Assembly (NCBI GenBank): GCA_017459675.1
Contig: JAFUCM010000001.1
Coordinates: forward strand, 1-38,727
Length of the DNA: 38,727 bases
Reading direction: 5' to 3'
Source: Eubacterium sp.
GTDB lineage: Bacteria; Bacillota; Clostridia; Lachnospirales; Lachnospiraceae
This document shows positions 8,046 to 38,727 of the stretch, in pieces. A model generated the notes under the pieces. It saw only the letters and a list, made by a program, of their open reading frames with translations, had not been told where the DNA came from and made no database searches. Position 1 is the stretch's first letter; every line of letters starts with the position of its first letter. Position numbers and translations under genes: made by a program.

Positions 8046-8182
8046 TTTTATTCTCCATAAGTATAGATGGAATATAGATTCATCGGGTTTCTGTCTGTTG
8101 TCATTATTGCAGAAATAGATATTGGATACAACCGGTTTTTCTGCGGAAAAGTCAGATTTTTTCGTTCAGAACGTGCCAGTTA

Positions 8183-8191
8183 TGCTATAAT
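8183..8191 (+). promoter_or_regulatory. Extended -10 promoter of trpB
   Basis: TGC-TATAAT at 8183-8191, an extended -10 element. The -35 region (around TTCGTT, 8161-8166) is weak. It lies 53 bp before the chosen start codon. The leader is too short for a T-box or an attenuator. Confidence 0.55.
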
Positions 8192-8244
8192 CAGATGGTA
8201 TCTTTTCGGGCAGCATGGATTTACAACAAAGAGAGGACATCATT

Positions 8245-9501: not shown

Positions 9502-9682
9502 ACTGCTGTTGTCACAGTATGAATTTCAGTTCGGAACGCCGTTTCCACTGGAGAAGTTTACGGATACGACAGAAATCGATTTGATTAATATTCTGTATAA
9601 CTGTGTGCAGAACAACGATCCGGACTACACAAAGCCGGCGGGAGAAAACCGCTTTCCGTACGCACCGGGACAGAAGGGGTAA
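9494..9682 (+). CDS. Hypothetical 62-residue protein coupled to trpB
   Basis: Its ATG (9494) overlaps the end of trpB (TGA at 9499-9501), and GGAGGAG (9480-9486) inside trpB is 7 bases upstream. That arrangement implies translational coupling and supports a real gene. The product starts [20 protein letters not shown] and has no membrane segment or known motif that I recognise. It is soluble and slightly acidic. The coupling suggests production in step with TrpB, but no function can be assigned. Confidence 0.65.
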
Positions 9683-9754
9683 ATAACGGCTCCCGTATGC
9701 GCCGGGCAAAGGGCAAATTCCGGCTTCCGTGTGAGTCATGACAGAAGGGGTAAA
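9669..9754. repeat. 15-bp direct repeat flanking the end of the 62-residue gene
   Basis: GACAGAAGGGGTAAA occurs at 9669-9683 and 9740-9754, a period of 71. The first copy contains the stop codon of the 62-residue gene. The surrounding CCGTANGC-type sequence is also loosely repeated, suggesting an old local duplication. Confidence 0.7.
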
Positions 9755-9783
9755 ACTGCCTGAGCATCTGAGGTAGACTGACT

Positions 9784-22201: not shown

Positions 22202-22400
22202 GTTCTCATAATCTGAAGATAAATAATCGGAGCACTGTCTCTGTTGCTTTGACGCTTGATTATATGCAGCGGATGATACAATCATAGATATTTAAAAGGT
22301 AATATTGTCCTTACAGAGCGAATATTATTCTCATAGCGCAATTATGATTTTCATAAGGAAGGAAAGTCCGTAAACCAGTATCCAGTATGAGGTGATTATT

Positions 22401-25400
22401 ATGAAGAACGATCTGAGAGAATTGTTAAAAATGCTCAGACAGCTGAAGCCGTCCGAAAGAGTCCGGACGCGATGCCGGTCAGCGATAGCGATTATAATTG
22501 TTTTCATTACAACGTATACGCTGATCATGCCGGCGGTTGCGCTGGAAAGAAATAATGTATCGGATGTTAAGGGGTTGAATCTTTCGGATCAGAGTGCGAA
22601 GGTTCTGAACTGCCATTTCCCTGTACATCAGCATACGGAGGAATGTTATAAAAAGGTGCCGGAATATGACGACGGCGGCAAGAAAATCGGGACGAAAAAA
22701 GTCCTTAATTGTTGGAAAGCAGACTGGATCGTCCACGAACACGATGAAAACTGCTATGAAAATGGTGTTCTTGTCTGTCAGCTCCCTGAGTATCAGGAAC
22801 ATAAGCACGATGCATCCTGTTATACGATGCAGCGCGTTTTGGCATGCGGAAAAGAGGAGACTCCCGGGCACCAGCACACAGACGCATGCTATCAGACGAC
22901 ACAGAATATTGCTTGTGGAATGGAAGAACACAGGCATTCCGATAAATGCTACAGCGATGTTGTGACAGGTACAGAGAAAAAGCTTGTCTGTGGATACGAT
23001 GAGGGCGAGGAGATCTCGCCGGCGGTTTACAGTGATCCGGTTATTGATGAGGAGACCGGCGAAACCATTGAACCAGCGCATCTTGTGCAGGATGCGGTTG
23101 TGCATCATCACACAGACAGCTGTTACGAGACAGAGACAAAGACCGAGCGTCAGCTGACGTGCGGTCTCACAGAGCATGTCCATTCGGATGCATGCTATCA
23201 GACAGAAAGAAAGCTGATCTGCGGCCAGACCGAAGGGAAGGGCCACACCCATACAGATGCATGTTATAAGGACAAAAAGGTTCTGACATGTACGGAACTG
23301 ACGCCGCACCGGCATACGGTCGACTGTTATGAGAAGGGCCCGAAGGGCGAAAGTCCGGTCGACATGGGCTGGGTCACGATCACGTATGATGAGTATGGAA
23401 ATGAAATTCTGAATGGAGATCCGGATCATCTGATCTGCGGCAAGATCGAGCTGCTGAAGCATCAGCATGATGATGGATGCTTCATGGATACAACAGCAGC
23501 TGACAGCGAAAATACGGAAAATATGGAAGCCGGTGACGCGGGCGTTCCGGAAAATGGAGCAGCCGCCGATGCGGACCTTCTGGAAAATGAAACTGCCGGC
23601 GAAGACAGATATCACGAAAACGAAATCACGTTTGATGAGAACGGCAATCCGATTGAAAATCCGGACGGCGATGCGGAAGGGCAGGACGATGAAACACCGT
23701 CCGGTCTGATCGTGCTGCATCCGGATGGCGAAGAAGAGCAGGCGGATGACAGCGAGATCAGCGAAGATGCAGAAGGTGAAAATGCTGACGCAGAAGCTGG
23801 AAATACTGACGTGGAAGATCCAGATGCAGAAAATACAGATCCGGAAGCTGCGGATGCAGAAGAAACGGACAAAACATCTACAGATGCAGAGGCTATCGAA
23901 GAAGCATCTGAGAATGGCGCTGCGTTTACAAAGACCGTCGAAGTAGAAGGCGCATCCTACAGTCTGATCGTCTCAGGCGAAGAAGCCTGCGGCATTCCGG
24001 AAAATGCTGTATTTAAGGCGACGGCCATTTCCGAGAAGCGTGATGATTACGACGCGTACCGCGAGAAGGCACTGGCAGCAGTCGATAATTATACAACAGA
24101 TGAAGCCAGCCGGGCAGAAGAAATGCCGGGTCTGTTCGATCTGACCATTTATGATGAAGATGGAAATGAGATCCAGCCCGCGGCGCCGCTGTCGATCCGC
24201 GTCGATCTCGGCGATGCAATCGGTGAAGATGCATCCGGCGTCTATGCCGTACATTTCCCCGGAACAAATGCAGACACCGTCATGCAGCCGGCTTCGAACA
24301 ATCCGGTCGGCAAGGCTGCGCAGGTGATCCGCGAGAAGATTACAGGCACTGGCACGGAAGTCATCGAGACGAAGACCGAAGACGATGGCGCGGTACAGTT
24401 CGAGGCTGAGAGTCTGTCTGTATATGCCATTGTGTATACGGTGGACTTTGAGTACTCGGTGAACGGCAAAATGTACCAGTTTTCGCTTCCCGGAGGCGGA
24501 TTTGTCAGCTTTACAGACCTCGTAGAAGTGCTGGGTATAATTGGTGATACATACAGCGAGGAAAATGACGCAGAAATAGAAGAACAGATCACCGATGGCA
24601 TGCTCGACGTTACGGCGAGTGATGCAGCGAAGAAGTTTGTGGCAGATGTGGAATCTGTAGAATTCAGTAGCCCTGAATTGGTGTGGGTTGGAAAGGTAGA
24701 TACAGAGACCACAGTCGGTACGCTGAAAGAAGCGAATGGGCTGGAGTGCGAGTATAGCGCGGAACTGACAGAAGAACAGATTGCAAGAATCAATGATACC
24801 GTAATCGAGTCGGGAGACTGGGCTTTGATTTCCATGCTTCCATTTGCTTCAGAAGAGACGCTAACAGTCACCATGAAGACAGGTGAAGTACTCACGATCA
24901 GAGTAACAGATGCTCAAATTAAAAAGACTGTAATTTCAACTTCCGGTGAGACTTACGAGATCACTGTGACCTATGACGACAGAGCGGAGATCCCGGATGG
25001 GGCAGAACTGAAGGTTAAGGAGATTCTGCCAGAGGATGAGAGATACGATGAGTACTATCAGCAGTCTCTTGAGAAGGTTGGCGTGGTCGATACGGCCACT
25101 GAAGAAGAGCCTGAAACTGTTGCAGATGCTGTGACGGATGCGCTTGATGGACTGAAAGACCTCATCAGCGGTGACAGTACAGATGATGAAGAGGAAGAAG
25201 GTGCAAAGCAGACATCAGATTATGCTCGAATCTTTGATATTCAGATCTGGGCTGATGATCATGAGATTCAGCCGAAGAGTGCTGTTACTGTGAACATCAA
25301 TTTGCTTGACGCTCCGGAAGATGAAAAAGCTGTTCCGTCCGTTGTTCACTTTGCCAAGGCTGGTGCTGAGCTGATGGAACTGGCGGAAAAAGCTGAGAAC

Positions 25401-28400
25401 AGCGAGACGGACGGTATCCAGTTTGTCACGGACGAGTTCTCGGTCTATTCTGTGGTATACACGGTTGATTTCTTCTTTGAGGTTAATGGCAAAGTCTACG
25501 GCTTCAATATGGATGGAGCCGACTCGGTCAGCCTTCGAGCGCTGGTTGAAGCCCTGCATGTCTATGAGGCAAAGCCTGATGGAGAAAAAGAAGCGGAATC
25601 TCCAGCAAAGTCAACGGATGAAGAGGCCGAACCCTATGTAGAATCGGAAGTGAATAATGACGAACTGGACGATTCGACTGAAATTCAGTCGGAACTCCTC
25701 GACCTGTTTATGAGGGAAGTGGAGACGGTTGCATTCAGCAATGAGGAACTCCTTGTTCCTGCAAAAGTGGATGAGAATACAACAGTCGGAAAGATCAAGA
25801 CGGCTTTGAAGCTGTTTCCTACCTACCCGCTGGGCTTGAAACAGTCTGAAGTGCTTGCACTCAATGAAAAGGAGTATTCAGCAGGGGATTGGGCTCTGAT
25901 CAGCATGAAGCCGTTCGATACGCAAGAAACCTTAACTATTACTTTGAAAAATGGTGATAGCTTCAAGATTCTTGTGACAGATGCGCAGGATGCTGTAATG
26001 ATCGGCGATCAGGTTCAGACTATATCTAACCCTGCTGGAACGACTATTGATCTTTTTGATTATTGGATCGTAAGTCAGGATCTTGTAGGAAGAGATGGAT
26101 GGGGCGACCTGAATCAGAGCCAGGGATCTGCGGAAGCAGGAGACGATAAGCCACTTAATGGAACCGGTAATAATAAAGGTATAAACTCTTCAACAACAGA
26201 TACTGAGCATGGTCATGCATTAAAGTTTTCACCTGCATGGTCTGGTACTGTTTATAACGGAAATAAAATAGGTACAACGGGAAATGCCTGGCAAAGTGTT
26301 AACCTGGATATGAGAGATGGCCTTAACAGTTATACAGGCGATGAATATACGTGGCATTGGAACTGCCCGAATCCATTTACAGGAATTGTTCAGAGCAACC
26401 TTTCAAATGGATATCCGATCCTTACAAACAATCAGACGATTGGTACAAACGGAGAATCACTTGCATATTTATTTGATCCTTCCATCAGCCATTCTGGAAA
26501 AGCAAGTTACTCTGACGTTAATCAGTTGCTGTATGTGGACAAGGATGGATATTATACATATGACAGCCGTGATTATGCAGCTTCATTTAATACTGGCGAT
26601 AAGACATTCACATTGACAGAACAGACATCCACAAATTCAGAAATACGTGGATTCTGGCCTTTTGGAACTCAAAATTTCTGGACTGGCATGCATGTCAATA
26701 CACAATTTTCCATGCCAACCGGTGGCCAGGTACTCAATCCATCAGGAGTGCTCAAACCTATGCAGTTTGAATTCTCTGGTGATGATGATGTATGGATTTA
26801 TGTAGACGGTATTTTAATTGGAGACGCTGGTGGTATCCATAACCGTACGGAAGTTGATATCAATTTCCAGACAGGGATTGTTAGCATCTCCGGGTCTGCA
26901 GATAAATATCTTGATGACCTCTTCAGAACAGGACTGCGTGATCAGGGAAAGACAGAAGCAGAAATCGAAGCCTATATTGACGCCAATTTTGACGGACATA
27001 CATTTAAGGCTGGCTCATATCATACTTTTGATTTCTTCTATCTTGAACGTGGTGGTGGGGAATCAAACCTGTACATCCATTACAATCTTGTTTCTACGGC
27101 AGACTTTACGGCACATAAGTCATATTATGGCGCAAATGAGACAGATCTTCTTACGAGAGATCAGTTCCAGTTTGAATTAATTGGACTGGATGGGAAATAT
27201 CGTTCGGTAAGGAATAACGAGACGGGAAACTATGAATTAGTACAGGAAGATACGACCTCTGAAGCAATTATGCCGCATGCAAGCGGAAGCGGTGAAGGGA
27301 CAGTAGCATCCCCGCATTATGAAGATGATGTAACGATTGCGACATCATCCGGCAATGTGAATTCTCAAGTATATATTACAGGAGTATCAGAAGACGGAAA
27401 TGTTAATTTCGGTACAGCGTCTATTTCCGAGATGGATATGCATGACGCCGATGAAGGCAACCCTCCGGTATATAAGTACATTATTCGGGAGATTGTCCCG
27501 GATGATGCCAAGAATGCTGCTGGAGTGACATGGGCAGAAGCGACCGATGAGCAACGAGCTGCAGGTGGATTTGTCAAGGATCAAGTGACCTATGATGGTA
27601 CTGTGTATTATATGACTGGTCGCGTCACATCCTGGACAGAGACCAATGCAAGCGGACAGGAGGTAGTAAGGCACGGTATTTCAAAGACATACTATACGGA
27701 TGATACTTATACTACGGTAAAATCAGACGTAAACTTTGCGAGTTTTGAAAACAGGTTTACTCCTGATTTTGGGAATGTCGATTTCAAGAAGGTCGATGGG
27801 ACAGGAGCAGCATTACAGGGAGCAACATTCGCACTCTATACAGATGAGGCTTGTACGAAACCAGCAAAGGATCTGGATTCAGAAGGAACTCCGGAATGGA
27901 CGGCAACGTCAGATGAAAACGGAACGGTTTCTTTTGAGAACGTAAGAGTTGGCACCTATTACATGAAGGAGACTGTGGCACCAAATGATTATGTGCTTGA
28001 TGAAACCATATACAAGGTTGTCATTGAAGACTCAAAAGATACATCCAAGAAATCAAAGATAACCATTTTAGGGGACGAAACAGAAACGGAAATCACTGAA
28101 ATTGCAAATGCAAAGTCCGGAAAAATAACAGTTCTTAAAAAGTGGCTTAACGCAAGTGGAGCAGAGATAGATGGCGGCAGTAATGCAGCGACAGTTAAGC
28201 TGAAAAGATATAAACAGATAGTAGAGTCAAGTGATGTCGAAACACATACTGTCACGATTAACCTCGATATAAGAGATTATGGCGGCAACTCTTGGACAGA
28301 GACAACTACCAAGTCTTTTCAGGGGGATCATGTAACTGTTGAATGGACAGTAGTAGACGGGGCTGGCGAGGGTGTATTTACTGGGCAAGACAGTAGTTAT

Positions 28401-29366
28401 TGGGACGAAAGTTCACATATTACAGTATTTAGCAAAAGTTTCAGCAATGTTAGTTCTGATATTACGTTAAATGTAACACTTAATGAATATTGGCCAATGC
28501 AGAATGGCAAGTTCAATATCGACTCCTTCTCAGTTGCCCAGGAAGAGCCGGATGAACCAGTAATCAACATTGTTGCAGATGATGATTTCAATCCTGGCCC
28601 GATAACGTTAAATAATTCATCATCCTGGTCTCACACGTGGAACATTGGCGGTTCAGAGTCAAGCCATACCGGATTCGATTATCCGGTAATGGATGATAAC
28701 GGAAAGAATTATCTGTATTATGTCGTCGAACTGGACGCCCAGGGAAATCCCGTAGAGGTTGGCGGATCTCCTCTGGAAGGATATGTTCTTCAGGGTTATT
28801 CCGCAAATAATAATACCGGAATTTCCAATCAAGGTGTAATAACGGTATACAACCGGACAGAAAGCTCAAATACGATCAACGTTGTAATCAAGAAGACGGA
28901 TAATGCTGAAAACAGTACGAACTATCTGGCTGGCGCAGTATTTAAACTGATGTACAGATCAGACGGTAGTAGTACATTCACGAATGTGTCCAATGAAATC
29001 GTTCCTGAGTTGGATTCTGAAAGCAAATTTACTGTACCGACATCGGGTATTACCCTGACCGGGCTTGTTGATGGACAGTATCAACTGCAGGAGATTTCTC
29101 CTCCATCGGGATATGTCATTACGAATTCCACCCCGGTAACCTTTACGGTATCAGGCGGAAGTATTAGCAATACGGATGGGACGATAACTGGTGTAAAGTA
29201 TACAGCAGCCACTGAAACAGGTGACGCAGAGTTCACAATCCCGAACGAACCTGGCGTCGCTCTCCCGAACACTGGCGGCCCCGGCACACGGCTCTTCACG
29301 ATCCTCGGCGGCCTCCTGATCCTTGGAGCGGGAGTACTGCTGTGGAGGAGACGGAGATTGATTTAA
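22401..29366 (+). CDS. Giant cell-wall-anchored surface protein (His/Cys modules, fibro-slime/PA14-like and Cna-B domains, LPNTG)
   Basis: A 2321-residue secreted protein. The ATG at 22401 follows GAGGTGA. Residues 1-50 form a long signal peptide with a membrane core (28-47, ending LIMPAVALE). Residues 70-362 hold ten C...HxHxxxC(Y/F) modules (HQHTEECY, HEHDENCY, HKHDASCY and so on). An acidic low-complexity linker follows (367-508). A module of about 340 residues then occurs twice (about 509-838 and 845-1195), each with YTVDF..(S/E)VNGK(M/V)Y, GDWALISM.PF and VTDAQ. Residues about 1210-1560 resemble a fibro-slime/PA14 lectin-like domain (FEFSGDDDVWIYVDG). Cna-B/SpaA-like domains follow (about 1569-2285; GNVDFKKVDGTGAALQGATF, YYMKETVAPNDYVL). 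The end is LPNTG (2288-2292), a hydrophobic helix and RRRRLI, a sortase substrate. No sortase gene is nearby. A role in adhesion is inferred. Confidence 0.93.
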   Translation: MKNDLRELLKMLRQLKPSERVRTRCRSAIAIIIVFITTYTLIMPAVALERNNVSDVKGLNLSDQSAKVLNCHFPVHQHTEECYKKVPEYDDGGKKIGTKKVLNCWKADWIVHEHDENCYENGVLVCQLPEYQEHKHDASCYTMQRVLACGKEETPGHQHTDACYQTTQNIACGMEEHRHSDKCYSDVVTGTEKKLVCGYDEGEEISPAVYSDPVIDEETGETIEPAHLVQDAVVHHHTDSCYETETKTERQLTCGLTEHVHSDACYQTERKLICGQTEGKGHTHTDACYKDKKVLTCTELTPHRHTVDCYEKGPKGESPVDMGWVTITYDEYGNEILNGDPDHLICGKIELLKHQHDDGCFMDTTAADSENTENMEAGDAGVPENGAAADADLLENETAGEDRYHENEITFDENGNPIENPDGDAEGQDDETPSGLIVLHPDGEEEQADDSEISEDAEGENADAEAGNTDVEDPDAENTDPEAADAEETDKTSTDAEAIEEASENGAAFTKTVEVEGASYSLIVSGEEACGIPENAVFKATAISEKRDDYDAYREKALAAVDNYTTDEASRAEEMPGLFDLTIYDEDGNEIQPAAPLSIRVDLGDAIGEDASGVYAVHFPGTNADTVMQPASNNPVGKAAQVIREKITGTGTEVIETKTEDDGAVQFEAESLSVYAIVYTVDFEYSVNGKMYQFSLPGGGFVSFTDLVEVLGIIGDTYSEENDAEIEEQITDGMLDVTASDAAKKFVADVESVEFSSPELVWVGKVDTETTVGTLKEANGLECEYSAELTEEQIARINDTVIESGDWALISMLPFASEETLTVTMKTGEVLTIRVTDAQIKKTVISTSGETYEITVTYDDRAEIPDGAELKVKEILPEDERYDEYYQQSLEKVGVVDTATEEEPETVADAVTDALDGLKDLISGDSTDDEEEEGAKQTSDYARIFDIQIWADDHEIQPKSAVTVNINLLDAPEDEKAVPSVVHFAKAGAELMELAEKAENSETDGIQFVTDEFSVYSVVYTVDFFFEVNGKVYGFNMDGADSVSLRALVEALHVYEAKPDGEKEAESPAKSTDEEAEPYVESEVNNDELDDSTEIQSELLDLFMREVETVAFSNEELLVPAKVDENTTVGKIKTALKLFPTYPLGLKQSEVLALNEKEYSAGDWALISMKPFDTQETLTITLKNGDSFKILVTDAQDAVMIGDQVQTISNPAGTTIDLFDYWIVSQDLVGRDGWGDLNQSQGSAEAGDDKPLNGTGNNKGINSSTTDTEHGHALKFSPAWSGTVYNGNKIGTTGNAWQSVNLDMRDGLNSYTGDEYTWHWNCPNPFTGIVQSNLSNGYPILTNNQTIGTNGESLAYLFDPSISHSGKASYSDVNQLLYVDKDGYYTYDSRDYAASFNTGDKTFTLTEQTSTNSEIRGFWPFGTQNFWTGMHVNTQFSMPTGGQVLNPSGVLKPMQFEFSGDDDVWIYVDGILIGDAGGIHNRTEVDINFQTGIVSISGSADKYLDDLFRTGLRDQGKTEAEIEAYIDANFDGHTFKAGSYHTFDFFYLERGGGESNLYIHYNLVSTADFTAHKSYYGANETDLLTRDQFQFELIGLDGKYRSVRNNETGNYELVQEDTTSEAIMPHASGSGEGTVASPHYEDDVTIATSSGNVNSQVYITGVSEDGNVNFGTASISEMDMHDADEGNPPVYKYIIREIVPDDAKNAAGVTWAEATDEQRAAGGFVKDQVTYDGTVYYMTGRVTSWTETNASGQEVVRHGISKTYYTDDTYTTVKSDVNFASFENRFTPDFGNVDFKKVDGTGAALQGATFALYTDEACTKPAKDLDSEGTPEWTATSDENGTVSFENVRVGTYYMKETVAPNDYVLDETIYKVVIEDSKDTSKKSKITILGDETETEITEIANAKSGKITVLKKWLNASGAEIDGGSNAATVKLKRYKQIVESSDVETHTVTINLDIRDYGGNSWTETTTKSFQGDHVTVEWTVVDGAGEGVFTGQDSSYWDESSHITVFSKSFSNVSSDITLNVTLNEYWPMQNGKFNIDSFSVAQEEPDEPVINIVADDDFNPGPITLNNSSSWSHTWNIGGSESSHTGFDYPVMDDNGKNYLYYVVELDAQGNPVEVGGSPLEGYVLQGYSANNNTGISNQGVITVYNRTESSNTINVVIKKTDNAENSTNYLAGAVFKLMYRSDGSSTFTNVSNEIVPELDSESKFTVPTSGITLTGLVDGQYQLQEISPPSGYVITNSTPVTFTVSGGSISNTDGTITGVKYTAATETGDAEFTIPNEPGVALPNTGGPGTRLFTILGGLLILGAGVLLWRRRRLI
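22599..23490 (+). repeat. Region encoding ten C...HxHxxxC(Y/F) modules
   Basis: Ten protein repeats of variable spacing, each with a Cys (usually in CG or C(Q/T)), 5-40 residues, then H-x-H-x3-C-(Y/F). Two His and two Cys per module would suit a bound metal ion such as zinc. The DNA copies have diverged, so this is an old expansion rather than recent slippage. Confidence 0.85.
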
Positions 29367-29494: not shown

Positions 29495-32400
29495 CTATGC
29501 AGCCAGCGGCATTGCGTTGGCATTGATATTGTCTACTACTGTCATGATCCGCTGGAAGAGTATAATGTTGTCCTCAAATACCTCTGTGACATCCATGCCT
29601 CCTGAGAATTCGTCATAAGCCATTTCCTGACGGGCAAGGGTGCCATACTGGACAAGCCAATCAATGATATATCGCACGAAAGTGATCTGTTCCTGCGTGT
29701 ATAGGCCGGTATCGAGGAATTCGTTAAATGCCTGTTCAGCAGTGGCTTTGTCCAGACCAGTGAGGCTACGGACAAATTTGCCGAGAGGAATATCCTCATC
29801 ATCAGCGGTATGGATCTCGCGCTTATATTCCTCAGCTGTGCCAACTTCGCTCCAGAAGATACGTTCCAGTGTTTCCCAATCTTCCTCATCAAGAGGGATA
29901 TTGTTTCTCAGTTTATTGAGAGCAGGTTCATCATAGTTCTCATCCACATATCTTCGAGCGCGTTCATAATAGCTTTCAAGATTTGATGGTTGTGTGAATT
30001 TTTCACCCTCACGCTCAAACAGCACCTGATCTGTGACGTTTATTATCTTGTGTCGGATTTCGCGCTTCAGGAAATGCATGAGACCCCGCATTTCTTCACG
30101 GATTTTGTCAATCTCCGGCAAGGTTGCAGTATTCCAGAATGTATCTGATTTTGCCCTTGCCAGCGTTTCCTTTGCAGCGATGACCTCCGGGATTGTGGCT
30201 TTCTGCTCAAGCGTCATGGCTGCGCGTTTTACTGTTCTGACATAGGAATTATACTTGTCTGTATTATTGTCCAGTTTTGCCAGAATGATCTGGAACATCA
30301 CTATGTCAAACCGTCTGGCGTATTCATCTCCATCAGCCGGTGGCATGAGAGCAGCAAGATGTGCTATTATGCGGTCGGCTTCCAGAATGTCCAGATACTG
30401 GAATGCTTCCGGTTTTGAGTATTTCTCTACATACTCCAGATTCTGACGTACCTGGAACTGCTCAACATTGAGCGCCGCAACAGAAGAGGAGAGTTCATCA
30501 ACCAGTGCCTTTCGGAATGGTATCAGTTCTTCGGTCTGATATTCCATTGCCTGCAGGGCCTGAATCGTGTGGACTTTTAGGGAGAAGGCTTTCTCTGCAA
30601 GAGAGCCATCACTGCTGGATTCTTTGCCCTGCGGATTCTCCTTGAAGAACTGGAAGTTGGCCATGTAGTCAAAGATATAGAATTCCTTCTTGTCGTCGCC
30701 GGGGCCAAAGAGATCCTCGCACAGGCGTGTCCCGCGACCAAACATCTGCCAGAACTTGGACACGGAGAAAACCTGTTTATAGAAAACAAGGTTTACGACT
30801 TCCGGCACATCGATGCCAGTATCGAGCATATCCACGGAGATCGCAATCTGCGGCAGCTTTGTAGGATCCTTGAAATCATCAAGCAGGGAATCACAGTGAT
30901 CCACCTGATTATCTATAACACGGGCGAATTTGCCCATATACTGAGGATACAGTTTATTGAATTGCTCTTCAATAAAGAGCGCGTGTTTATGACGCTTTGC
31001 AAATATAATGGTTTTCCCGAGCTTGTCGCCGCCTTCAACTTTTATGCCTTTCTCCATCAGCTCTGACAGAATGCGGCGAGTGGTGTCCTTATTGAAGACA
31101 ATGGTGTCGATGTCCGTGCTCCCGATGAAATCAGGCATCTCTTCGCCTTCTTCGAAAGAATCCTCATATTCCTCTTTCTGTTCATCGGTCAGGTCATCGT
31201 AGTTGATTCCTTCGGTCGGGATCTTATACAGCTTCTCGATGGTGTGATAATCAACCAGCCAGCCTTCGTCGCGTGCCTGATCATATTCGTAGGCATAGGT
31301 CGGCATATCATCTTCAAGATCGAAGAAATCATATGTGTTGTGGCCGACATCTTTCTTCGGCGTAGCGGTCAAGCCTACAAGCAGCGCATCGAAGTACTCA
31401 AAAATAGCCCGGTACTTCTTGAAAATACTGCGATGGGCCTCATCAACGATGATCAGATCAAAATGACCGGGAGTGAAGAGTTTCTGTCCATCATCTGTTT
31501 TCTCGTCATTGATGGCATTCATGATAGTCGGGTATGTGGAGAAGATAGCCCGGTCTGTAGGTTTGTCTTCTCCGCGCTCCAGCAGATTGCAGGTGGACAG
31601 ATTCGGCATGTGCTTTACAAATGCCTTTTTTGCCTGCTTCACGAGTTCGCGACGGTCTGCAAGGAACAGAATATTTGTGATCCATCTATGATCTTGCAGC
31701 ACATCCACGAGGGAAACGGCAGTACGGGTTTTGCCGGTTCCTGTTGCCATGACAAGAAGAGCTTTTCGTTTTTTCTTGGAGAAGTCGCTGCAAACGCTTT
31801 GAATAGCAGCTTTCTGGTAGTCGCGGTCTGTGATTTCTGGATTGATATTGAGCTGCCGAAATTCTTTCTGCAGAGTGCGCCGGTCAATGATTCGCTGGAT
31901 ATCCTTCTTCGAGAAGACGGAGTACACCTTCCGCTCGGTATAGTTCAGATCATCCCATAACCATGTAGTATACCCATTAGTGTAGAAAATGAGAGGACGG
32001 AACCCAGTCATTTGCTGCAGGCAGTTTGCGTACAGGTATGCCTGATGCTGGCCCTCTTTTGCATCCCGGGTTGTGCGTTTGGCTTCGATCACAGCAAGCG
32101 GCTTCAAGTTGTCGGCAAAAAGAACATAGTCGACGGAGCCGGTTCCGGTGGGAGTGTCCGGCATCCCGACAACAGGATATTCTTCAATACAATCCTTGCC
32201 GATTGTCCAGCCCATTGATTTAATATCGAGGTCAATGATGCTTTTTCTTGTCTCGGCTTCGGTTTTTTCGTTGGCAGAATAATGGCGCTTCTGCTCGTTT
32301 TCCCTACGGAGCTTTTCCAGTTCATCGCGGAGTTTCTTCATTTCCTCCGCCATCTGTCCCCGCTCTTTTGATTTAGACTCCAGATCCTTCAGAAGACGAT

Positions 32401-32857
32401 CCAGTTCTTCAGATGAAATGTGCTGATTATTATCCGCAGCGAGGAGGGATTCGTCGAAGGTTCTCTCTTCGTAGTGCTCGCCATAGCAGTAATCAATGAA
32501 AACGATAAAATCAAAGAGATTAGCAAGTGAGAGCACAGCCTCTTTGTATGTGACCTTTGTACTTGTATGCGCGGAGAAATTGCCCAGCTTTATGATGAAT
32601 TTCAGTCGATCCAGAATATCTTCATCGATGGTATCTAAGAAGGACTGATTGTAAACCAGAGCTGAGAAATTATCTTTGTATGGCATACGAAGGTTGCGGT
32701 CAACAGAGTAGAGCCATTTGACTGCAAGTTCAGCACTTTTCCGGACGCCAAGAGCGCACAAGGCAGGGCTCACAGATATGGAGTTTTCTGCCTCTATGCA
32801 GGCATCAGCAAATGCTGCAAATTGGTTTTCATTCTTGAGGAAGTCAAAGTTTGTCAT
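29495..32857 (-). CDS. hsdR: Type I restriction enzyme, R subunit (HsdR)
   Basis: A 1120-residue translocase-nuclease subunit that pulls DNA with ATP and cuts it far from the recognition site. It starts with a DUF4145-like helical region (about 1-145) and a charged coiled-coil (about 150-195). The PD-(D/E)XK nuclease domain follows, with D243 in SVDYVLFAD and E258-x-K260 in VIEAKR. The helicase core has Walker A MATGTGKT (about 371-377), DEAH (about 472-475) and later motifs such as GLTATP, TGIDVPEVV and FGRGTRLCEDL. The C-terminal region (EcoEI_R_C type) binds the methylase. The ATG at 32857 is chosen since GGGAGG is 10 bases upstream, while the ATG at 32866 nearly touches it. It ends the operon, 57 bp after hsdS. 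Confidence 0.95.
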   Translation of the reverse strand: MTNFDFLKNENQFAAFADACIEAENSISVSPALCALGVRKSAELAVKWLYSVDRNLRMPYKDNFSALVYNQSFLDTIDEDILDRLKFIIKLGNFSAHTSTKVTYKEAVLSLANLFDFIVFIDYCYGEHYEERTFDESLLAADNNQHISSEELDRLLKDLESKSKERGQMAEEMKKLRDELEKLRRENEQKRHYSANEKTEAETRKSIIDLDIKSMGWTIGKDCIEEYPVVGMPDTPTGTGSVDYVLFADNLKPLAVIEAKRTTRDAKEGQHQAYLYANCLQQMTGFRPLIFYTNGYTTWLWDDLNYTERKVYSVFSKKDIQRIIDRRTLQKEFRQLNINPEITDRDYQKAAIQSVCSDFSKKKRKALLVMATGTGKTRTAVSLVDVLQDHRWITNILFLADRRELVKQAKKAFVKHMPNLSTCNLLERGEDKPTDRAIFSTYPTIMNAINDEKTDDGQKLFTPGHFDLIIVDEAHRSIFKKYRAIFEYFDALLVGLTATPKKDVGHNTYDFFDLEDDMPTYAYEYDQARDEGWLVDYHTIEKLYKIPTEGINYDDLTDEQKEEYEDSFEEGEEMPDFIGSTDIDTIVFNKDTTRRILSELMEKGIKVEGGDKLGKTIIFAKRHKHALFIEEQFNKLYPQYMGKFARVIDNQVDHCDSLLDDFKDPTKLPQIAISVDMLDTGIDVPEVVNLVFYKQVFSVSKFWQMFGRGTRLCEDLFGPGDDKKEFYIFDYMANFQFFKENPQGKESSSDGSLAEKAFSLKVHTIQALQAMEYQTEELIPFRKALVDELSSSVAALNVEQFQVRQNLEYVEKYSKPEAFQYLDILEADRIIAHLAALMPPADGDEYARRFDIVMFQIILAKLDNNTDKYNSYVRTVKRAAMTLEQKATIPEVIAAKETLARAKSDTFWNTATLPEIDKIREEMRGLMHFLKREIRHKIINVTDQVLFEREGEKFTQPSNLESYYERARRYVDENYDEPALNKLRNNIPLDEEDWETLERIFWSEVGTAEEYKREIHTADDEDIPLGKFVRSLTGLDKATAEQAFNEFLDTGLYTQEQITFVRYIIDWLVQYGTLARQEMAYDEFSGGMDVTEVFEDNIILFQRIMTVVDNINANAMPLAA

Positions 32858-32914
32858 GGTGACCATTCCTCCCGGTAAAGTTTCTTTATAATGGTGGGTA
32901 CGGAGTACCTGGGA

Positions 32915-34084
32915 CTATCCGAAGTATTCCTGCATTAGGGATGCCAGCAGTGTATTCAGTTTATCCAAAATAGATTGAACGACAGCTTTTGATTTGTCGA
33001 CTTGCAAGGCAAAGACTACAAATGCTCTTTGCATAGTTATTGGAGGCACAATCACTGGCATTTCCTTAAACTCGCCCATATTCAATCCCTGTAAAGCGAT
33101 TCCTTTTGTTATGCCCTTCAACCAATTCTTGATTGCATCCTGTGCAAACAGCTCTTGAAGAAAGCGCTGTAGGACTATATTCGAATCAGTGACAAGGGGT
33201 ACGATGTTCCTGCCAACGTTACATCCTTCGAATTCGTCTGTGGTTTGAAAAGTCTCTCCAACAGAGCCACGCACAGTAATTAGTAGCTCATTTCCCTTTA
33301 ATAGTGTTCTCTTATATCGTGCAGAGATTAAGGGATCTGTTTTTTTCAATTCTTCCCTTTTCGGGATATGACCACCAGCGATGTCTATCGGCCTGAAAAC
33401 AGGAATACCATTTTCAAATTCATCGCCTGTTTGAACAATTCCGTATGTTACTGTTCTGCCTGCTTCCAAGGATTCAAGCAATGTGATTTTCTGCCAGCCT
33501 CGATCGTTGACGACTGGATCCCCAAACATCTCGACAAATCGGGCATTGATACTTTCATTCAGGATGTTTAACTCGTTTTGACAGATTCGAGCAGCTTCTG
33601 TAATTGCCTCAAACTGGGACACGGCTTTTTCTTGACATGAAATATCTGGAATACGTATCTCAATGTTTTCAACAATTGCCTTGGAGATTTCTTTGAATGT
33701 TGCGCCCCTCCCAAGTGAATTAAGAAATTCAGTTTTTGACTTAAGAAGCCAATACAAGTATTTATTATTAATGGCGTCAGAGCAGATAAGGTTCTTAAAC
33801 CCCTGATTACAATACATCTCACAACCAGCAATTGCCACTTTGCCGATGGGAGCGCGGGATGATAAGAGTACAGTTCCCGTTGGAAATGAAGACAGCCCGG
33901 TTTTCTTAACTGCCACGTCTGTAATTTTTCTTTCTGTATCATTTATGATGTATGATTCTTTATTAATTTCGGCTGGTGTTATCCATTTGATATCACCATT
34001 CCAAAATTCTGGATTATCGGTCTTTGGGGTACTACCGGACACAACGGTGCAGATGTCACCAAGTTTATATGTTTTCATCAGCAT
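32915..34084 (-). CDS. hsdS: Type I restriction-modification specificity subunit (HsdS)
   Basis: A 389-residue DNA-recognition subunit with two target-recognition domains. TRD1 begins with YKLGDICTVVSGSTPKT and ends near IRIPDISCQEKAV. A conserved helical spacer follows (SQFEAITEAARICQNELNIL). TRD2 runs from WQKITLLES to MPVIVPPITMQRAFVVFALQ, followed by the second helix KAVVQSILDKLNTLLASLMQEYFG. Both halves are complete, so it should give a bipartite recognition sequence. GAGAGG lies 6 bases before the ATG at 34084. The gene is visibly richer in A+T than hsdM and hsdR, as expected if its recognition domains were exchanged. No second hsdS fragment or invertible repeats were seen, so phase-variable switching is not indicated here. 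Confidence 0.93.
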   Translation of the reverse strand: MLMKTYKLGDICTVVSGSTPKTDNPEFWNGDIKWITPAEINKESYIINDTERKITDVAVKKTGLSSFPTGTVLLSSRAPIGKVAIAGCEMYCNQGFKNLICSDAINNKYLYWLLKSKTEFLNSLGRGATFKEISKAIVENIEIRIPDISCQEKAVSQFEAITEAARICQNELNILNESINARFVEMFGDPVVNDRGWQKITLLESLEAGRTVTYGIVQTGDEFENGIPVFRPIDIAGGHIPKREELKKTDPLISARYKRTLLKGNELLITVRGSVGETFQTTDEFEGCNVGRNIVPLVTDSNIVLQRFLQELFAQDAIKNWLKGITKGIALQGLNMGEFKEMPVIVPPITMQRAFVVFALQVDKSKAVVQSILDKLNTLLASLMQEYFG

Positions 34085-34094
34085 CCAACACCTC

Positions 34095-35564
34095 TCATTC
34101 CGATAATAGCTTCTCTATTTCATCAAGCTTTATTAGTAAATCTCTACCTAGTGCTTTTGCATCAGATATAAGCGCATCAGATGCAGGATACTCTATAGGA
34201 ATGTATTCAACCTCTTTGTATTTATTGATGCTCAGATCATAACCGTTATCTCTGATTTCTTGAACAGATACGAAAAAGCTCTTATCTGTTCGCTTACGGT
34301 TAAGCTCACCTTCAAGATTTCTGAAGCGAGCGATGATATCTGGGATATCATTGTGCTTTTCATCTTCAGCACGTTTATCATCGAGGGTATACCCGTCAGC
34401 TTGCATATCATAGAACCAGACTTTGTTTGTCCCGCCGGTGCCGGTTTTGGTGAAAATCAAAACCCCCGTTGACACTCCGGCATAAGGTTTAAACACACCA
34501 CCCGGCATTGAAATGACTGCTTGCAGCATGTTTTTATCAACGATCTCTTTTCGAAGAGATTTATGTGCATTTGAGGAGCCGAACAACACACCATCTGGTA
34601 CAATGCAGGCGCAACGTCCGCCCGCATCCAGCATACGCAGGAAGAGGGCAACGAAAAGAAGCTCCGTTTTTTTTGTTTTTGTGGTACTCAGAAGAGTCGG
34701 AGCCACGGCGTCGTAATCCAATGATCCTGTGAAGGGAGGATTTGCAAGGATCAGACTGTATTTTTCTGTATCCGGATTATCCTTGGAAAGAGAATCCATA
34801 AAGCGAATGTCCGCATTGTCCATCTCATGAAGGATGGTATTCATCGCTGAAATACGCAGCATTGTCTGATTGGTATCATAGCCGGTGAACATGGCGTTCT
34901 GATAATGCTCCCGGGCCTTTTTGTCCAGACGGAGTTTTTCTTTGTTGTGTTCACGGACGTATGTGCCAGCACCGACAAGGAAGCCACCTGTGCCGCAGGC
35001 CGGATCCGCGATGACATCCGTGATCTGAGGTTCCATCAGTTCCACCATCATGCTGATGATGTGGCGAGGGGTCCGGAACTGGCCGTTTCTGCCAGATGTC
35101 TGGAGCTTCGAAATCATATATTCATAGACGTCACCCTTAAGATCGCGGTCATTCAGAGGGAGATTGTTAATAGCCGTTACGACTTTTTCTGTGATCAAAG
35201 CATTCGGAAGTGCAAATTTTGCATCTCGCATATATCGGGCATAAGCGCTCTTCTCATCGGTTTTAAGCTTCTGGATAAAAGGAAACACCTTCTGGCCGAT
35301 GATCTCAAAGATTTCTTCTGCCTTCAGGTTGCAGAACTTACTCCAGCGCATGGCCTGACCTTCCTCCGTCTGAGGGAAGATCCGTTTGCTGGTAATCTGC
35401 AGCATTTCGTCTTTTTTCTCATTGCTGGTTTCAAGGTCATCGAGAGACTTTATGAAGAACAGATATGTCATCTGCTCGATGGCAACGATGGGATCGGAGA
35501 CCCCATACGAAGCCAGGTCATCCCAGATTTTATCGATTTGGTTTTTCAATGTACCCGTAATCAT
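34095..35564 (-). CDS. hsdM: Type I DNA methyltransferase subunit (HsdM)
   Basis: A 489-residue N6-adenine methyltransferase that protects host sites and forms the M2S core. The N-terminal helical domain is MITGTLKNQIDKIWDDLASY onward. The SAM-binding motif DPACGTGGFLVGAG lies at about 187-200, and the catalytic NPPF at about 275-278. The ATG at 35564 is preferred over upstream in-frame GTG/ATG codons because AGGAGG and GAGG are just upstream and HsdM proteins normally start with this helix. The gap to immA is 29 bp and to hsdS 10 bp, so the genes form one operon with the regulators. Confidence 0.95.
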   Translation of the reverse strand: MITGTLKNQIDKIWDDLASYGVSDPIVAIEQMTYLFFIKSLDDLETSNEKKDEMLQITSKRIFPQTEEGQAMRWSKFCNLKAEEIFEIIGQKVFPFIQKLKTDEKSAYARYMRDAKFALPNALITEKVVTAINNLPLNDRDLKGDVYEYMISKLQTSGRNGQFRTPRHIISMMVELMEPQITDVIADPACGTGGFLVGAGTYVREHNKEKLRLDKKAREHYQNAMFTGYDTNQTMLRISAMNTILHEMDNADIRFMDSLSKDNPDTEKYSLILANPPFTGSLDYDAVAPTLLSTTKTKKTELLFVALFLRMLDAGGRCACIVPDGVLFGSSNAHKSLRKEIVDKNMLQAVISMPGGVFKPYAGVSTGVLIFTKTGTGGTNKVWFYDMQADGYTLDDKRAEDEKHNDIPDIIARFRNLEGELNRKRTDKSFFVSVQEIRDNGYDLSINKYKEVEYIPIEYPASDALISDAKALGRDLLIKLDEIEKLLSE

Positions 35565-35593
35565 TACCTCGTCTTTCCTCCTGACGTTAAAGT

Positions 35594-36520
35594 TTATATC
35601 TCGCATTCTTCGAAACAGAATCCCTGTCGAATGCGGAGGACAGGATTCCCGCACTGTTCACAAAATGCCGCGTCGGCGGCGGACTGTCTGTTCCAACAGT
35701 GAACGCCAGGAATATTGCTTAGTTGTTTCTGAAGGGCGGAGCCGCAGTATGGGCAGAACTTCGCATCTTTGTTATGCTTTTTGCCACAGTATGGGCAAAT
35801 ATCCGGTTTTCGCAGAAAAGGAGCCATTGGTGTCCGGAACTTTTGTTGTGCTGGATTCACCTTTGCATAGTGCCCCAGATCTATGTCTTCCCTGTCAGCG
35901 CATACAGTAATCTCTTTTAAATACTCCTCAAATCGATGCAATGTAAAGGTTGCGTTAGCGGGAATGAAAGAGTAGTCCTCTGTCGCTTTACGATAGCGGT
36001 TCAGCGCGGCTTTATCACTGATGCCACATATCTCGGAGATATCATGTTCGCTGTAGATATCCAGCTGCCGCATGATCCATTTGGATGCGAGGACTTCTCC
36101 GGCAAATATATCAGCTTCAAACTCAAGCTGATTATACAGATCTTCCCCCAGATCATCTTTATGCAACTCAGTAACCTTGTATTTTACAAGATGTCCCAAA
36201 TAGATATGACCGATCTCGTGGAGTTTTGTCCACAGAATACGGCCTTCCGGGATATAATCAGCTGCATTGATAATAATGCAGTAAGAATCATTCTTTACGT
36301 CATACATGGACAAACCGTCCTGACTTCTCATCACGTGATGTAGTATATGTTCTTCTGTCTGCCCGGTTTCATAGGCAAGCTGTGAAACATACTTCATACG
36401 CCAGTTCGGTCGCTGATCAATGATATCCTCCGGATTAACAGGGAGCCATTTGATTCCGAATTCGTCAAGGAAGCGATGCGCCATGTAGTAAACTCTCAGT
36501 GCGCTATCGCTTCTATTCAT
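35594..36520 (-). CDS. ImmA/IrrE-family metallopeptidase with C-terminal zinc ribbons
   Basis: A 308-residue protein. The M78/DUF955 protease domain (about 1-220) has the zinc motif HEIGH (101-105), with a downstream Glu in QLEFEADIF as likely third ligand. ImmA of ICEBs1 and IrrE of Deinococcus cut or inactivate XRE-type repressors. The C-terminal part holds one clear zinc ribbon (CPYCGKKHNKDAKFCPYCGS, about 240-262) and a second, less regular one (HCW...CEQCGNP, about 273-293), which typical ImmA proteins lack. The start ATG overlaps the stop of the XRE gene by 8 bases (ATGAATAG), so the two are translationally coupled. This strongly suggests that the XRE protein is its substrate. The protein is directly upstream of hsdM. 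Confidence 0.9.
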   Translation of the reverse strand: MNRSDSALRVYYMAHRFLDEFGIKWLPVNPEDIIDQRPNWRMKYVSQLAYETGQTEEHILHHVMRSQDGLSMYDVKNDSYCIIINAADYIPEGRILWTKLHEIGHIYLGHLVKYKVTELHKDDLGEDLYNQLEFEADIFAGEVLASKWIMRQLDIYSEHDISEICGISDKAALNRYRKATEDYSFIPANATFTLHRFEEYLKEITVCADREDIDLGHYAKVNPAQQKFRTPMAPFLRKPDICPYCGKKHNKDAKFCPYCGSALQKQLSNIPGVHCWNRQSAADAAFCEQCGNPVLRIRQGFCFEECEI

Positions 36521-37013
36521 TAAATGCGTCCGGGTATAAGGACTCCATAACCTTTCTTAATTTTTCCAATTCCTCATCAGAGAGAGTGGCCCCGGCTCTC
36601 AGGATTGCCTTAAGATCAGGATTCTCGACAAATTCCGCAAGTGTCCTGTCATCGGGCGCGGCACGAAATGCAGCCAGCGTCTTTGCCAAAGCCTGCTGGT
36701 CAATACTCTGGCTACTGTCACCAGTTCTTTCTACAGCGCGAACTTCGCCGTCGGCAGAAGTGACACCCTCTGCAGCAAGCTTTGTCATTGCAGATGCCAT
36801 CTGTTCTCTCTTCTGAATATCGAGCATTTTTTCAAGCGGCATATCAAGGACGACCGCAATTTTGGCAAGCATCTCAACCTGCGGTTCTCTTGCGCCGGAT
36901 TCGATATATTCAAGATAGGATTTAGATATACCGGTTGCGGTGCTCAAGGCTTTAATTGCGACCTTTTTTTCCCGCCTGACGTTTTTGATAAATTTCCCTA
37001 ATTGCTGTCCCAT
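36513..37013 (-). CDS. XRE-family transcriptional regulator (ImmR-like)
   Basis: A 166-residue repressor. An N-terminal helix-turn-helix of the Cro/CI type spans about residues 3-62 (LGKFIKNVRREKKVAIKAL, STATGISKSYLEYIESGAREP, EMLAKIAVVLDMPLEKML). A flexible linker (about 70-105) leads to a C-terminal helical region that could dimerise or be the protease target. The ATG at 37013 is chosen over a GTG at 37058, since it fits the usual HTH start (MGQQLGKFI) and has AGAGGG 10 bases upstream. It leads the operon of immA-like, hsdM, hsdS and hsdR. The palindromes at 37055 and 37137 are its likely operators. Confidence 0.9.
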   Translation of the reverse strand: MGQQLGKFIKNVRREKKVAIKALSTATGISKSYLEYIESGAREPQVEMLAKIAVVLDMPLEKMLDIQKREQMASAMTKLAAEGVTSADGEVRAVERTGDSSQSIDQQALAKTLAAFRAAPDDRTLAEFVENPDLKAILRAGATLSDEELEKLRKVMESLYPDAFNE

Positions 37014-37044
37014 TTCAATAAACCCTCTCGGAGTGGGCGATATA

Positions 37045-37073
37045 TTGACAATGCCCACAAATAGTGGTATTAT
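37045..37073 (+). promoter_or_regulatory. Rightward promoter facing the hsd operon promoter
   Basis: TTGACA (37045-37050), exact 17-bp spacer, TATTAT (37068-37073). The spacer contains the palindrome CCACAAATAGTGG, directly against the -10. It also overlaps the untranslated leader of the leftward operon. A terminator hairpin lies about 20 bases downstream. Confidence 0.75.
37055..37067. promoter_or_regulatory. Operator copy 1 (CCACAAATAGTGG)
   Basis: A 13-bp dyad (CCAC/GTGG arms) in the spacer of the rightward promoter. An outer dyad GTGGGC/GCCCAC (37033-37038 with 37053-37058) overlaps it. The same 13-mer is found at 37137-37149. Confidence 0.75.
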
Positions 37074-37093
37074 GTGTTTCGAAGTTTAGAGAG

Positions 37094-37122
37094 ACTCGTG
37101 CCGGGTCGGCGCGAGTTTTCTC
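37094..37122 (+). terminator. Terminator hairpin between the two facing promoters
   Basis: ACTCGTGCCG (37094-37103), loop GGT, CGGCGCGAGT (37107-37116), then TTTCTCTT. The T-rich tail exists only for rightward transcription. In the leftward transcript the same hairpin forms in the leader without a U-tract. Confidence 0.7.
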
Positions 37123-37130
37123 TTGACCAT

Positions 37131-37159
37131 AAGGTACCACAAATAGTGGGGTTTGTCAA
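37131..37159 (-). promoter_or_regulatory. Leftward promoter of the XRE-immA-hsdMSR operon
   Basis: On the minus strand: TTGACA (37159-37154), exact 17-bp spacer, TACCTT (37136-37131). As in the facing promoter, CCACTATTTGTGG fills the -10-proximal end of the spacer. The leader to the XRE start is about 110 nt. Confidence 0.7.
37137..37149. promoter_or_regulatory. Operator copy 2 (CCACAAATAGTGG)
   Basis: Identical to copy 1 but embedded in the opposite-facing promoter. Centre-to-centre distance is 82 bp, close to eight helical turns. The wider context, TACCAC-N5-GTGGG-N2-TTGTCAAT, is also shared when the two sites are read in their respective orientations. Confidence 0.75.
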
Positions 37160-37206
37160 TCGGAAACCCACACAAATCTGAATTTACAGGAGGATGAGTA
37201 TAGCCT

Positions 37207-37386
37207 ATGGAAGTACGCACCAAAAATGGTAACGGGAAAATGCTTTTTGATTGGGATCCGGAGAAAGACCAAATCGAAATCATAAGCAAAGACATGTGTT
37301 ACCTGGTGGAACTGCAAAAACAACCACAGGGTGGATCCTATCGGATTCTCTCGGAGAAACCGAAGGAAAAGACTGTGCACAAATAG
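37207..37386 (+). CDS. Hypothetical 59-residue protein, divergent from the XRE operon
   Basis: A short frame from ATG 37207 to TAG 37386. The product starts MEVRTKNGNGKMLFDWDPEK and is hydrophilic, with no membrane segment. AGGAGG (37188-37193) lies upstream but at an unusually long 13-base spacing; a closer ATG at 37194 gives only 12 codons in another frame. An exact terminator follows 38 bases after the stop, supporting a real gene. I do not recognise the family. In ImmR/ImmA mobile elements the divergent small gene is often an excision factor, but no helix-turn-helix is visible here. Confidence 0.55.
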   Translation: MEVRTKNGNGKMLFDWDPEKDQIEIISKDMCYLVELQKQPQGGSYRILSEKPKEKTVHK

Positions 37387-37531: not shown

Positions 37532-38173
37532 ATGCAGAAAAGAAACAACGAATCCCTGAATTTTGATCACAAAAGCCACTATAACGATGACCGCGACAGT
37601 TACATCGATAAGAACGGAAACTATGTCTACACGCAGTGGGTGAAGGTCGGAAAAACCTATGAGCGCCGCGTCGTCGACATCATTCCCCTGACAGAAGAGA
37701 ACCGGGACATCATCATCCTGCTCGACGGCAGCGATCATGACATGGATCTGCAGGATCGGTACGTAGCAGAAAATACTGATTACGGAATGGAGAACCGGAA
37801 GCAGAGGCAGGCTGACGGAAGCCAGACAGATGGAGATGATGACCAGACTTTCGATTCTGATCCGATGGAAAGTATCGCCGATCCCCGGGCCGATGTTATG
37901 ACGACGCTTTTTCCGGACGATACGCCGGGAAACCCTCTTGTGACGCAGGCAGAGGAGTTTATCGAAACGCAGCTGAAACCGGCGCAGCAAGATATGATCT
38001 ACGGCCATCTTGGCGAAGGGAAGTATCTGGAGGATCTCCGCCGGGAGGAGAACGAGCGTACAGGAAAGGAAGTTAAGAAGGCGGCCTACCACGACCGTTG
38101 GGATCGCATCATCCAAAAGGGCTGCAGGTACTTCGGAGTCGAGAAACCGAAACAGCAGAAAAAGCGGAAATGA
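37532..38173 (+). CDS. Hypothetical protein with a possible sigma-region-4-like C-terminus
   Basis: A 213-residue hydrophilic protein; AAGGAG (37520-37525) is 6 bases before the ATG. The N-terminal part (about 1-75) contains YIDKNGNYVYTQWVKVGKTY, and the middle (about 85-120) is acidic and low in complexity. The C-terminal part (about 135-205) reads QLKPAQQDMIYGHLGEGKYL, then EDLRREENERTGKEV and YHDRWDRIIQKG. This resembles the helix-turn-helix of sigma-70 region 4 in small mobile-element proteins of Bacillota. The likeness is by eye only, and there is no region 2. The gene stands after a terminator and starts a run of small plus-strand genes. Confidence 0.7.
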   Translation: MQKRNNESLNFDHKSHYNDDRDSYIDKNGNYVYTQWVKVGKTYERRVVDIIPLTEENRDIIILLDGSDHDMDLQDRYVAENTDYGMENRKQRQADGSQTDGDDDQTFDSDPMESIADPRADVMTTLFPDDTPGNPLVTQAEEFIETQLKPAQQDMIYGHLGEGKYLEDLRREENERTGKEVKKAAYHDRWDRIIQKGCRYFGVEKPKQQKKRK

Positions 38174-38249: not shown

Positions 38250-38456
38250 ATGCAGATAAAACATCGAGTACGGATCAATGTCGCTGACCGGAACGGCAAT
38301 CAGCAGAACGTGCTGGAGAGCAGGAAGCTGAGAGTGCCGCAGCGGATTTTGAGGCTCCTGTTCGGGGATTTCTGCGAGGTTCTCGTTCTGACACCGGGCA
38401 AAAGCGTCCAAGGCGTTGAGATCGAGCAGTTGCGAGGTGAAGCCAATGAAAGCTGA
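38250..38456 (+). CDS. Hypothetical 68-residue basic protein
   Basis: The start is ATG 38250, with AGGAGG (38237-38242) 7 bases upstream; an open frame extending back to 38010 overlaps the previous gene and is not used. The product begins MQIKHRVRINVADRNGNQQN and is rich in Arg and Leu. It includes a segment RLLFGDFCEVLVLTPG that could form a small beta-sheet. No family is recognised. The compact spacing and good ribosome binding site fit a mobile-element gene run. Confidence 0.68.
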   Translation: MQIKHRVRINVADRNGNQQNVLESRKLRVPQRILRLLFGDFCEVLVLTPGKSVQGVEIEQLRGEANES

Positions 38457-38553: not shown

Positions 38554-38727
38554 ATGGAATTCAAATATGTAATGACTCCCGCAGGGAAGGGATCGAAGAA
38601 CGATGTCGAAGCAGCCACAAAAGCGTGCAGGTATTTCCGGATGGATGATGTGCCGGTCAGCCCGGTTCTCGCGTTCAGCTTTCTGGACGATGAAGACTGG
38701 CTGAAAAGATATCTCTCCAAAGCACTC
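38554..38727 (+). CDS. Hypothetical protein, 3' end beyond the window
   Basis: The frame opens at ATG 38554 with AAAGGA (38541-38546) 7 bases upstream and stays open for 58 codons to the window edge. The visible part starts MEFKYVMTPAGKGSKNDVEA and contains CRYFRMDDVPVSPVLAFSFL. No family is recognised from this fragment. Confidence 0.6.
   Translation, partial: MEFKYVMTPAGKGSKNDVEAATKACRYFRMDDVPVSPVLAFSFLDDEDWLKRYLSKAL

Follow-up and report, generated by a model that had tools for sequence, protein, structure and literature searches.

Gene content of the locus

The window, the whole stretch of 38,727 nucleotides of Eubacterium sp. DNA that was analysed, carries a leftward group of five genes that faces four rightward open reading frames (ORFs). 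The leftward gene nearest to the rightward ORFs (36513-37013, - strand) encodes a putative XRE repressor of 166 aa (HTH_3, 4.6e-10), for which the best PADLOC match is HTH_VI (7e-16) and the second is capH (2.7e-8). A profile search against solved structures gave 14 matches for XRE, including SinR and an entry named immunity repressor protein, that cover little beyond the helix-turn-helix (HTH) part. The xre gene is overlapped by a gene for a 308-aa ImmA/IrrE-like M78 peptidase (35594-36520, - strand) with a HEIGH motif and C-terminal zinc ribbons, which matches PADLOC capP (9.8e-9), has phrog_19315 as its best PHROG (3.6e-27) and gave no match in the solved-structure profile search. An HTH gene that adjoins an M78 protease gene is the arrangement of the ImmR/ImmA or CapH/CapP pairs. 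The genes that follow on the - strand are hsdM (34095-35570; PADLOC MTase_I, 1.5e-173; start taken at 35570 in an ORF that is open to 35654), hsdS (32915-34084; identified by a family match and PADLOC) and hsdR (29495-32866; PADLOC REase_I, 1.6e-163), all open and collinear, as in a type I restriction-modification (R-M) system. The first-pass annotation had described an operon of XRE with hsdMSR; that gene set is present, but xre and hsdM are separated by the M78 protease gene, which had gone unmentioned. Positions 1-29366, beyond hsdR, look chromosomal, with metabolic genes and a surface protein; the latter, encoded at 22392-29366 (+ strand) next to the end of hsdR, is a 2324-aa LPXTG-anchored protein with SpaA domains.

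On the rightward side, the first ORF (37207-37386, + strand, 59 aa) has no family match above the cut-off, and the second (37532-38173, + strand, 213 aa) has no Pfam or PHROG match and occupies, as judged by eye, the position of the sigma-like genes of two relatives, L032 and L034. The third ORF (38250-38456, + strand) encodes a small phage protein (phrog_7234, 2.6e-21) that shares 47% identity with an early L034 gene over 62 aa, and the fourth (38554-38727, + strand) is an early ORF of which only the start precedes the contig end, with weak relatives (29-33% over 47 aa) near the DUF2800 genes of loci L056, L059 and L065. The end of the contig at 38727 therefore leaves four visible rightward ORFs, of which two match phage genes, one of them weakly. 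Pfam analysis of 28 window proteins revealed no integrase. The DUF2800 protein and SNF2 helicase of L032 found no match in the window's genome, in one search whose controls matched nowhere and another that had no positive control, which may mean that the element is a remnant or that the assembly is incomplete.

Facing promoters and their candidate operators

Two promoter-like sequences face each other upstream of xre: P2 (37045-37073, + strand; TTGACA-N17-TATTAT, with TG before the -10) and P1 of the xre-hsd genes (37159-37131, - strand; TTGACA-N17-TACCTT). The spacer of each contains an exact copy of the 13-mer CCACAAATAGTGG, candidate operator O2 at 37055-37067 in P2 and O1 at 37137-37149 in P1, neither of which is assigned a strand; each 13-mer abuts its -10, and the two are 82 bp apart. 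The first-pass annotation had given these promoters and the identical 13-mer against each -10, and its coordinates and distance proved exact on re-reading. It had also called the sites an identical palindrome; the copies are identical, but the palindrome is imperfect, with arms CCAC and GTGG, and on the + strand both copies read in the same direction, in contrast to the inverted promoters. Both promoters have their hexamers at the positions given, but the -10 of P1 (TACCTT) agrees with TATAAT at only three of six positions and P1 is absent from the promoter-scan listing. In both promoters the GTGG arm of the operator directly adjoins the -10 and supplies a TG 5' of it, which we take to be an extended -10 element of P1 and P2. 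A degenerate third candidate operator, O3 (37024-37036, not assigned a strand), reads CCACTCCGAGAGG on the - strand, lies 31 bp from O2 and covers the likely ribosome-binding site of XRE.

The hexamers or the loosely matched 13-mer considered separately show no excess over chance: three promoter-like matches were found over 4.2 kb against a mean of 5.2 in shuffles, and seven 13-mer matches with up to three mismatches against a mean of 7.86. The exact 13-mer, however, occurs twice in a 3.3-kb stretch, as in none of 200 shuffles. The pattern CCACNANTNGTGG has three sites in the 2.98-Mb genome, two of them at this locus, and a reversed control pattern has four. The combination of promoter and operator was assessed by 5000 rounds of dinucleotide shuffling applied to the 250 bp upstream of XRE, scoring any promoter with an operator of up to two arm mismatches against its -10, for the window and relatives L032 to L035. 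The window has two operator-bearing promoters, whereas not one of its 5000 shuffles had even one; at least one appeared in one shuffle each for L032 and L034 and in none for L033 and L035 (5000 each), and both promoters together appeared in none. The combination of promoter and operator in the window therefore exceeds chance. Across 85,303 bases of six loci, all eight exact CCAC-N5-GTGG sites lie within 250 bp upstream of XRE. A CCACAATTGGTGG pair at G815:C134 was considered as an operator and dismissed, as it lies in a repetitive stretch.

Conservation in related loci

Full-length relatives of XRE were found in L032 (69% identity), L087 (68%), L033 (58%), L034 (55%) and L035 (55%), and with the window these make up the six loci counted here, among which two are close kin (86% XRE identity). 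A further locus, L090 of genome G1170, was excluded from these counts; it has a 29% XRE stretch and no match to the protease or hsd queries. A scan of genome contigs gave one relative (L032); the viral scans with XRE gave the same three records, plus two short HTH matches in one scan; and a viral protease-profile search recovered those same three records together with 23 loci that are more distant. The L034 record was the sole result of a fixed-pattern scan of viral contigs, and a search with the L033 protease returned only its own record. Among 396 other genomes of the family sample, 191 had XRE matches. Those listed, of which the best was 1.3e-8 (39% over 72 residues), mostly span the N-terminal part only. 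No match passed 1e-20 in 60 other close relatives or 1e-15 in 397 other genomes of the phylum; the family of G815 (189 genomes) gave no passing match outside G815 itself and G958; and a class sample of 391 gave, besides the window's own, one match (G1170, 1e-18). Plasmids gave 13 records matching over about 37% of XRE, and phage records gave no XRE match.

In all six loci XRE is the P1-proximal gene and is followed by the protease gene. The hsdM gene follows the protease in all five loci with DNA reaching that far, the window included; the L032 contig carries only the first 74 residues of hsdM, and L034 ends earlier. The HEIGH motif is invariant in the five aligned proteases, and the XRE stretch SKSY-x2-YIESGAREPQ is invariant in all six loci, as expected if the loci share an operator.

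P1 with its operator is present in 6/6 loci (with an 18-bp spacer in L032) and P2 with its operator in five (L032, L034, L035, L087 and the window), so the shared operator in facing promoters noted in the first-pass annotation is a feature kept in relatives. O1 and O2 both have no arm mismatches in the window, L034 and L035; L087 has one in O1 and none in O2, and L032 has one in O1 and two in O2. The window, L034 and L035 each have an O3-type site with 7/8 arm matches at a distance of 31-32 bp from O2; the arm matches fall to 5/8 in L032 and 4/8 in L087. The first-pass annotation had asked whether both sites and their spacing are kept: the sites are kept in these five loci, but the O1-O2 spacing varies, at 82 bp in the window, 89 in L087, 93 in L032, 78 in L034 and 79 in L035. 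These five spacings share no common helical phase (p 0.29-0.45 for helical repeats of 10.2-11.0), and the proposal that a repressor loops the DNA between O1 and O2 over about eight turns is therefore unsupported.

Phage-type genes face the XRE operon in the same five loci. They are clearly early phage genes in L034, L035 and L087/L088, and in the window two of four ORFs match before the contig end. The opposing strand of L034 encodes a sigma-70 region 4 protein, DUF2800, a ssDNA-binding protein, VapE, an SNF2 helicase, both terminase subunits and a gene named PolA-type by eye; L035 and L088 carry relatives of the DUF2800, ssDNA-binding and PolA-type genes (the last named by eye in L035), and the opposing side of L032 carries sigma-like and small genes. 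L033 is the exception. It keeps the repressor, protease and hsdMSR, with an O1 of no mismatches, but lacks P2 and O2; a second site, CCACATATAGTAG, lies 35 bp before XRE and within no P2-like promoter. Its whole 54,685-base record, searched in three pieces by tblastn with ten phage-side queries, four of them window ORFs, gave no match.

Several further features of the wider set were recorded. In the L033 record, genes that resemble a defence island by eye lie behind hsdR (L082:4296-10102), the first of them without a Pfam match, and a second exact operator-like site, CCACTCATAGTGG, also lies behind hsdR (L077, G816:C1:42555-42567). In L087, a tyrosine recombinase gene (8829-9821, - strand; Phage_integrase, 9.2e-34) is embedded among the hsd genes and flanked by hsdS-type genes, of which the one on its far side, at 8119-8802, was assigned by eye; the enzyme is either a phage integrase or an hsdS-shuffling enzyme. 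L056 (10380-13716, - strand) is a phage-type locus with another XRE-M78 pair, near which an hsdM match and an hsdS-like gene (by eye) lie on the other strand. Twelve IMG/VR loci (L044-L055), with proteases 27-33% identical, show by eye the order XRE, protease, recombinase, with a small gene between in three; all nine of the twelve recombinases that were given to Pfam are integrases or recombinases. Many of these loci have, by eye, a Rha- or Cro-like gene opposite.

A hairpin between the promoters

The predicted P2 RNA contains a strong hairpin (37094-37116) followed by TTTTCTCTT, and the end of this element (37094-37124, + strand; z -4.22 for the fold of 37078-37124) coincides with the predicted start of P1. 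L032 and L087 retain the stem, which was chosen by eye, and in each it is followed by TTTTTATTT, so that stem and T-run are present in three of the five loci that carry P2. Stem changes across L032 and L087 comprise one compensatory pair (G-C to A-T) and one change from A-T to G-T. In L034 the hairpin lacks a T-run, and L035 shows no more than a weak fold. A pattern scan for terminators did not list the hairpin in the window or L032, and the single Rfam match, far below the gathering score, was dismissed. The hairpin is a probable intrinsic terminator for the P2 RNA that would shield P1. The first-pass annotation had expected the two polymerases to collide once repression is released; this expectation is weakened, as P2 RNA would mostly be halted before P1 and collision need not be the default.

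A probable immunity switch with restriction on the lysogenic transcript

The region is probably the immunity (lysis/lysogeny) switch of a prophage or prophage-derived element, with restriction on the lysogenic transcript. Two of the four rightward ORFs resemble early phage genes, and P2 is therefore best read as a phage early promoter. P1 would produce a single leftward lysogenic transcript encoding the XRE repressor, the M78 protease and HsdM-S-R. XRE bound at O2 would keep P2 and the early genes off, and XRE bound at O1 would limit its own operon, including the restriction genes; given that both operators lie between the -35 and the -10, binding should exclude polymerase, and the weaker O3 may assist. 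XRE is the putative binder of the lytic promoter, at sites that are conserved. By analogy with ImmA and CapP, the protease would remove XRE on a DNA signal and P2 would fire. Most P2 RNAs would end at the hairpin and T-run after about 40-45 nt, and P1 would be shielded until readthrough to the early genes. Restriction in a lysogen would be expected at a set level and not to be sharply switched on. The absence of both P2 and phage-side matches from L033 is what a phage switch predicts, as seen in a single contrast locus.

Two claims of the first-pass annotation are modified by this interpretation. Control of the hsd operon by XRE suits the placement of the operator, and XRE would act on its own operon, but the opposing transcript most plausibly represents a phage early operon. 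The proposed sharp switch for restriction most likely decides between lysis and lysogeny instead, and restriction rides on the lysogenic transcript.

A tentative alternative, compatible with an immunity switch, is that the locus is a defence controller resembling CapH/CapP, in which the protease cuts XRE on DNA damage or infection and restriction rises, with P2 a remnant or minor damper. XRE and the protease match PADLOC capH and capP, although the best match of XRE is HTH_VI; hsdMSR is the sole cargo seen behind P1 in the window; and L033 has all of repressor, protease and hsdMSR but no P2 and no detected phage-side genes. P2 and its operator are nevertheless kept in all five loci that face phage-type genes, and a rise of restriction together with the lytic genes would hardly serve a phage unless its own DNA were already modified.

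It is unlikely that P2 chiefly yields a short, terminated RNA that acts as an antisense regulator through complementarity to roughly the first 43 nt of the P1 leader. The predicted P1 and P2 starts overlap by 43, 50 and 54 nt in the window, L087 and L032 respectively, the three loci with the conserved stem, its compensatory pair and the T-run, and this favours such an RNA; the folds of L034 and L035, the position of the paired part far upstream of the XRE start and the lack of any RNA family match above the gathering score argue against it. A related scheme, to which little credence is given, combines the terminator with the immunity switch: placed exactly between the facing promoters, it would stop lytic RNA before the lysogenic promoter, so that antitermination would be needed for lytic onset, and the RNA released by termination would, as an antisense of the repressor-restriction mRNA leader, tune the amounts of restriction enzyme and repressor in the lysogen. 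A sharp restriction switch made by a repressor looped on O1 and O2 together with polymerase collision is very improbable, for although the operators are identical at 82 bp and the predicted starts overlap, the spacing ranges over 78-93 bp without a common phase, the promoters are separated by a terminator-like hairpin in three of five loci and the opposing genes resemble phage genes.

Comparison with known systems

The overall kind of element is already known: prophage LM41phi5 of Clostridium clostridioforme is described as carrying a complete type I R-M system and an IrrE-type protease in its lysogeny module, with convergent promoters predicted between orf13 and orf14, for which the authors suggest 186-like interference (PMC11318856). 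Its protease is listed with PHROG 19315, in a row assigned to phi5 by table order (PMC11318856). The window, compared with LM41phi5 by description only, therefore resembles it in having type I R-M beside an IrrE-type protease, in the PHROG common to both proteases and in its convergent promoter pair. The available part of the LM41phi5 description contains no operators, shared sites or terminator, and it places two short integrases within the hsd cluster, whereas none was found in that of the window (PMC11318856). The recombinase among the hsd genes of L087 recalls these two integrases.

Coliphages 186 and P2 have opposed lytic and lysogenic transcripts, as the window would, and in 186 pR is described as interfering with pL (PMC7708051). 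Facing promoters with predicted overlapping transcripts are present in five of the six loci, and the gene of the putative repressor is first on the lysogenic transcript in all six. We know of no protease partner, R-M cargo or inter-promoter hairpin in the switches of 186 and P2. Three features of the window are unseen in the available descriptions of LM41phi5 and of coliphages 186 and P2: the operator common to both spacers, its conservation at variable spacing and the hairpin between the promoters. A non-exhaustive literature search, covering sources in part, found no description of shared operators in the facing promoters of an R-M-bearing prophage.

CapH/CapP is reported to regulate immune operons such as CBASS and Bub (PMC13373217). 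The window likewise has an HTH repressor and a protease, with PADLOC matches to capH and capP, heading a defence operon, hsdM following in 5/5 loci that reach it, but its pair stands at the head of a type I R-M system and is part of a phage-type switch that has a second promoter, unlike the systems in the available account (PMC13373217). ImmR/ImmA of ICEBs1 and TnSmu1 is similarly a repressor and metalloprotease pair that controls a mobile element, although the available account describes no R-M cargo for either (PMC10233336), and the promoters of ICEBs1 are elsewhere called divergent (PMC11318856). RptR, as described, is a small repressor of a type I R-M locus that binds TAGCTA (PMC12255303), and the window has a small putative repressor at such a locus; TAGCTA does not occur at 37014-37206, which argues against control of the RptR type.

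A striking promoter pair beside hsd genes thus need not mean a restriction switch. The locus offers a conserved operator whose binding is testable, and, if the immunity switch reading is true, a type I restriction system would be tied to the lysogeny decision of a prophage through one repressor and one protease.
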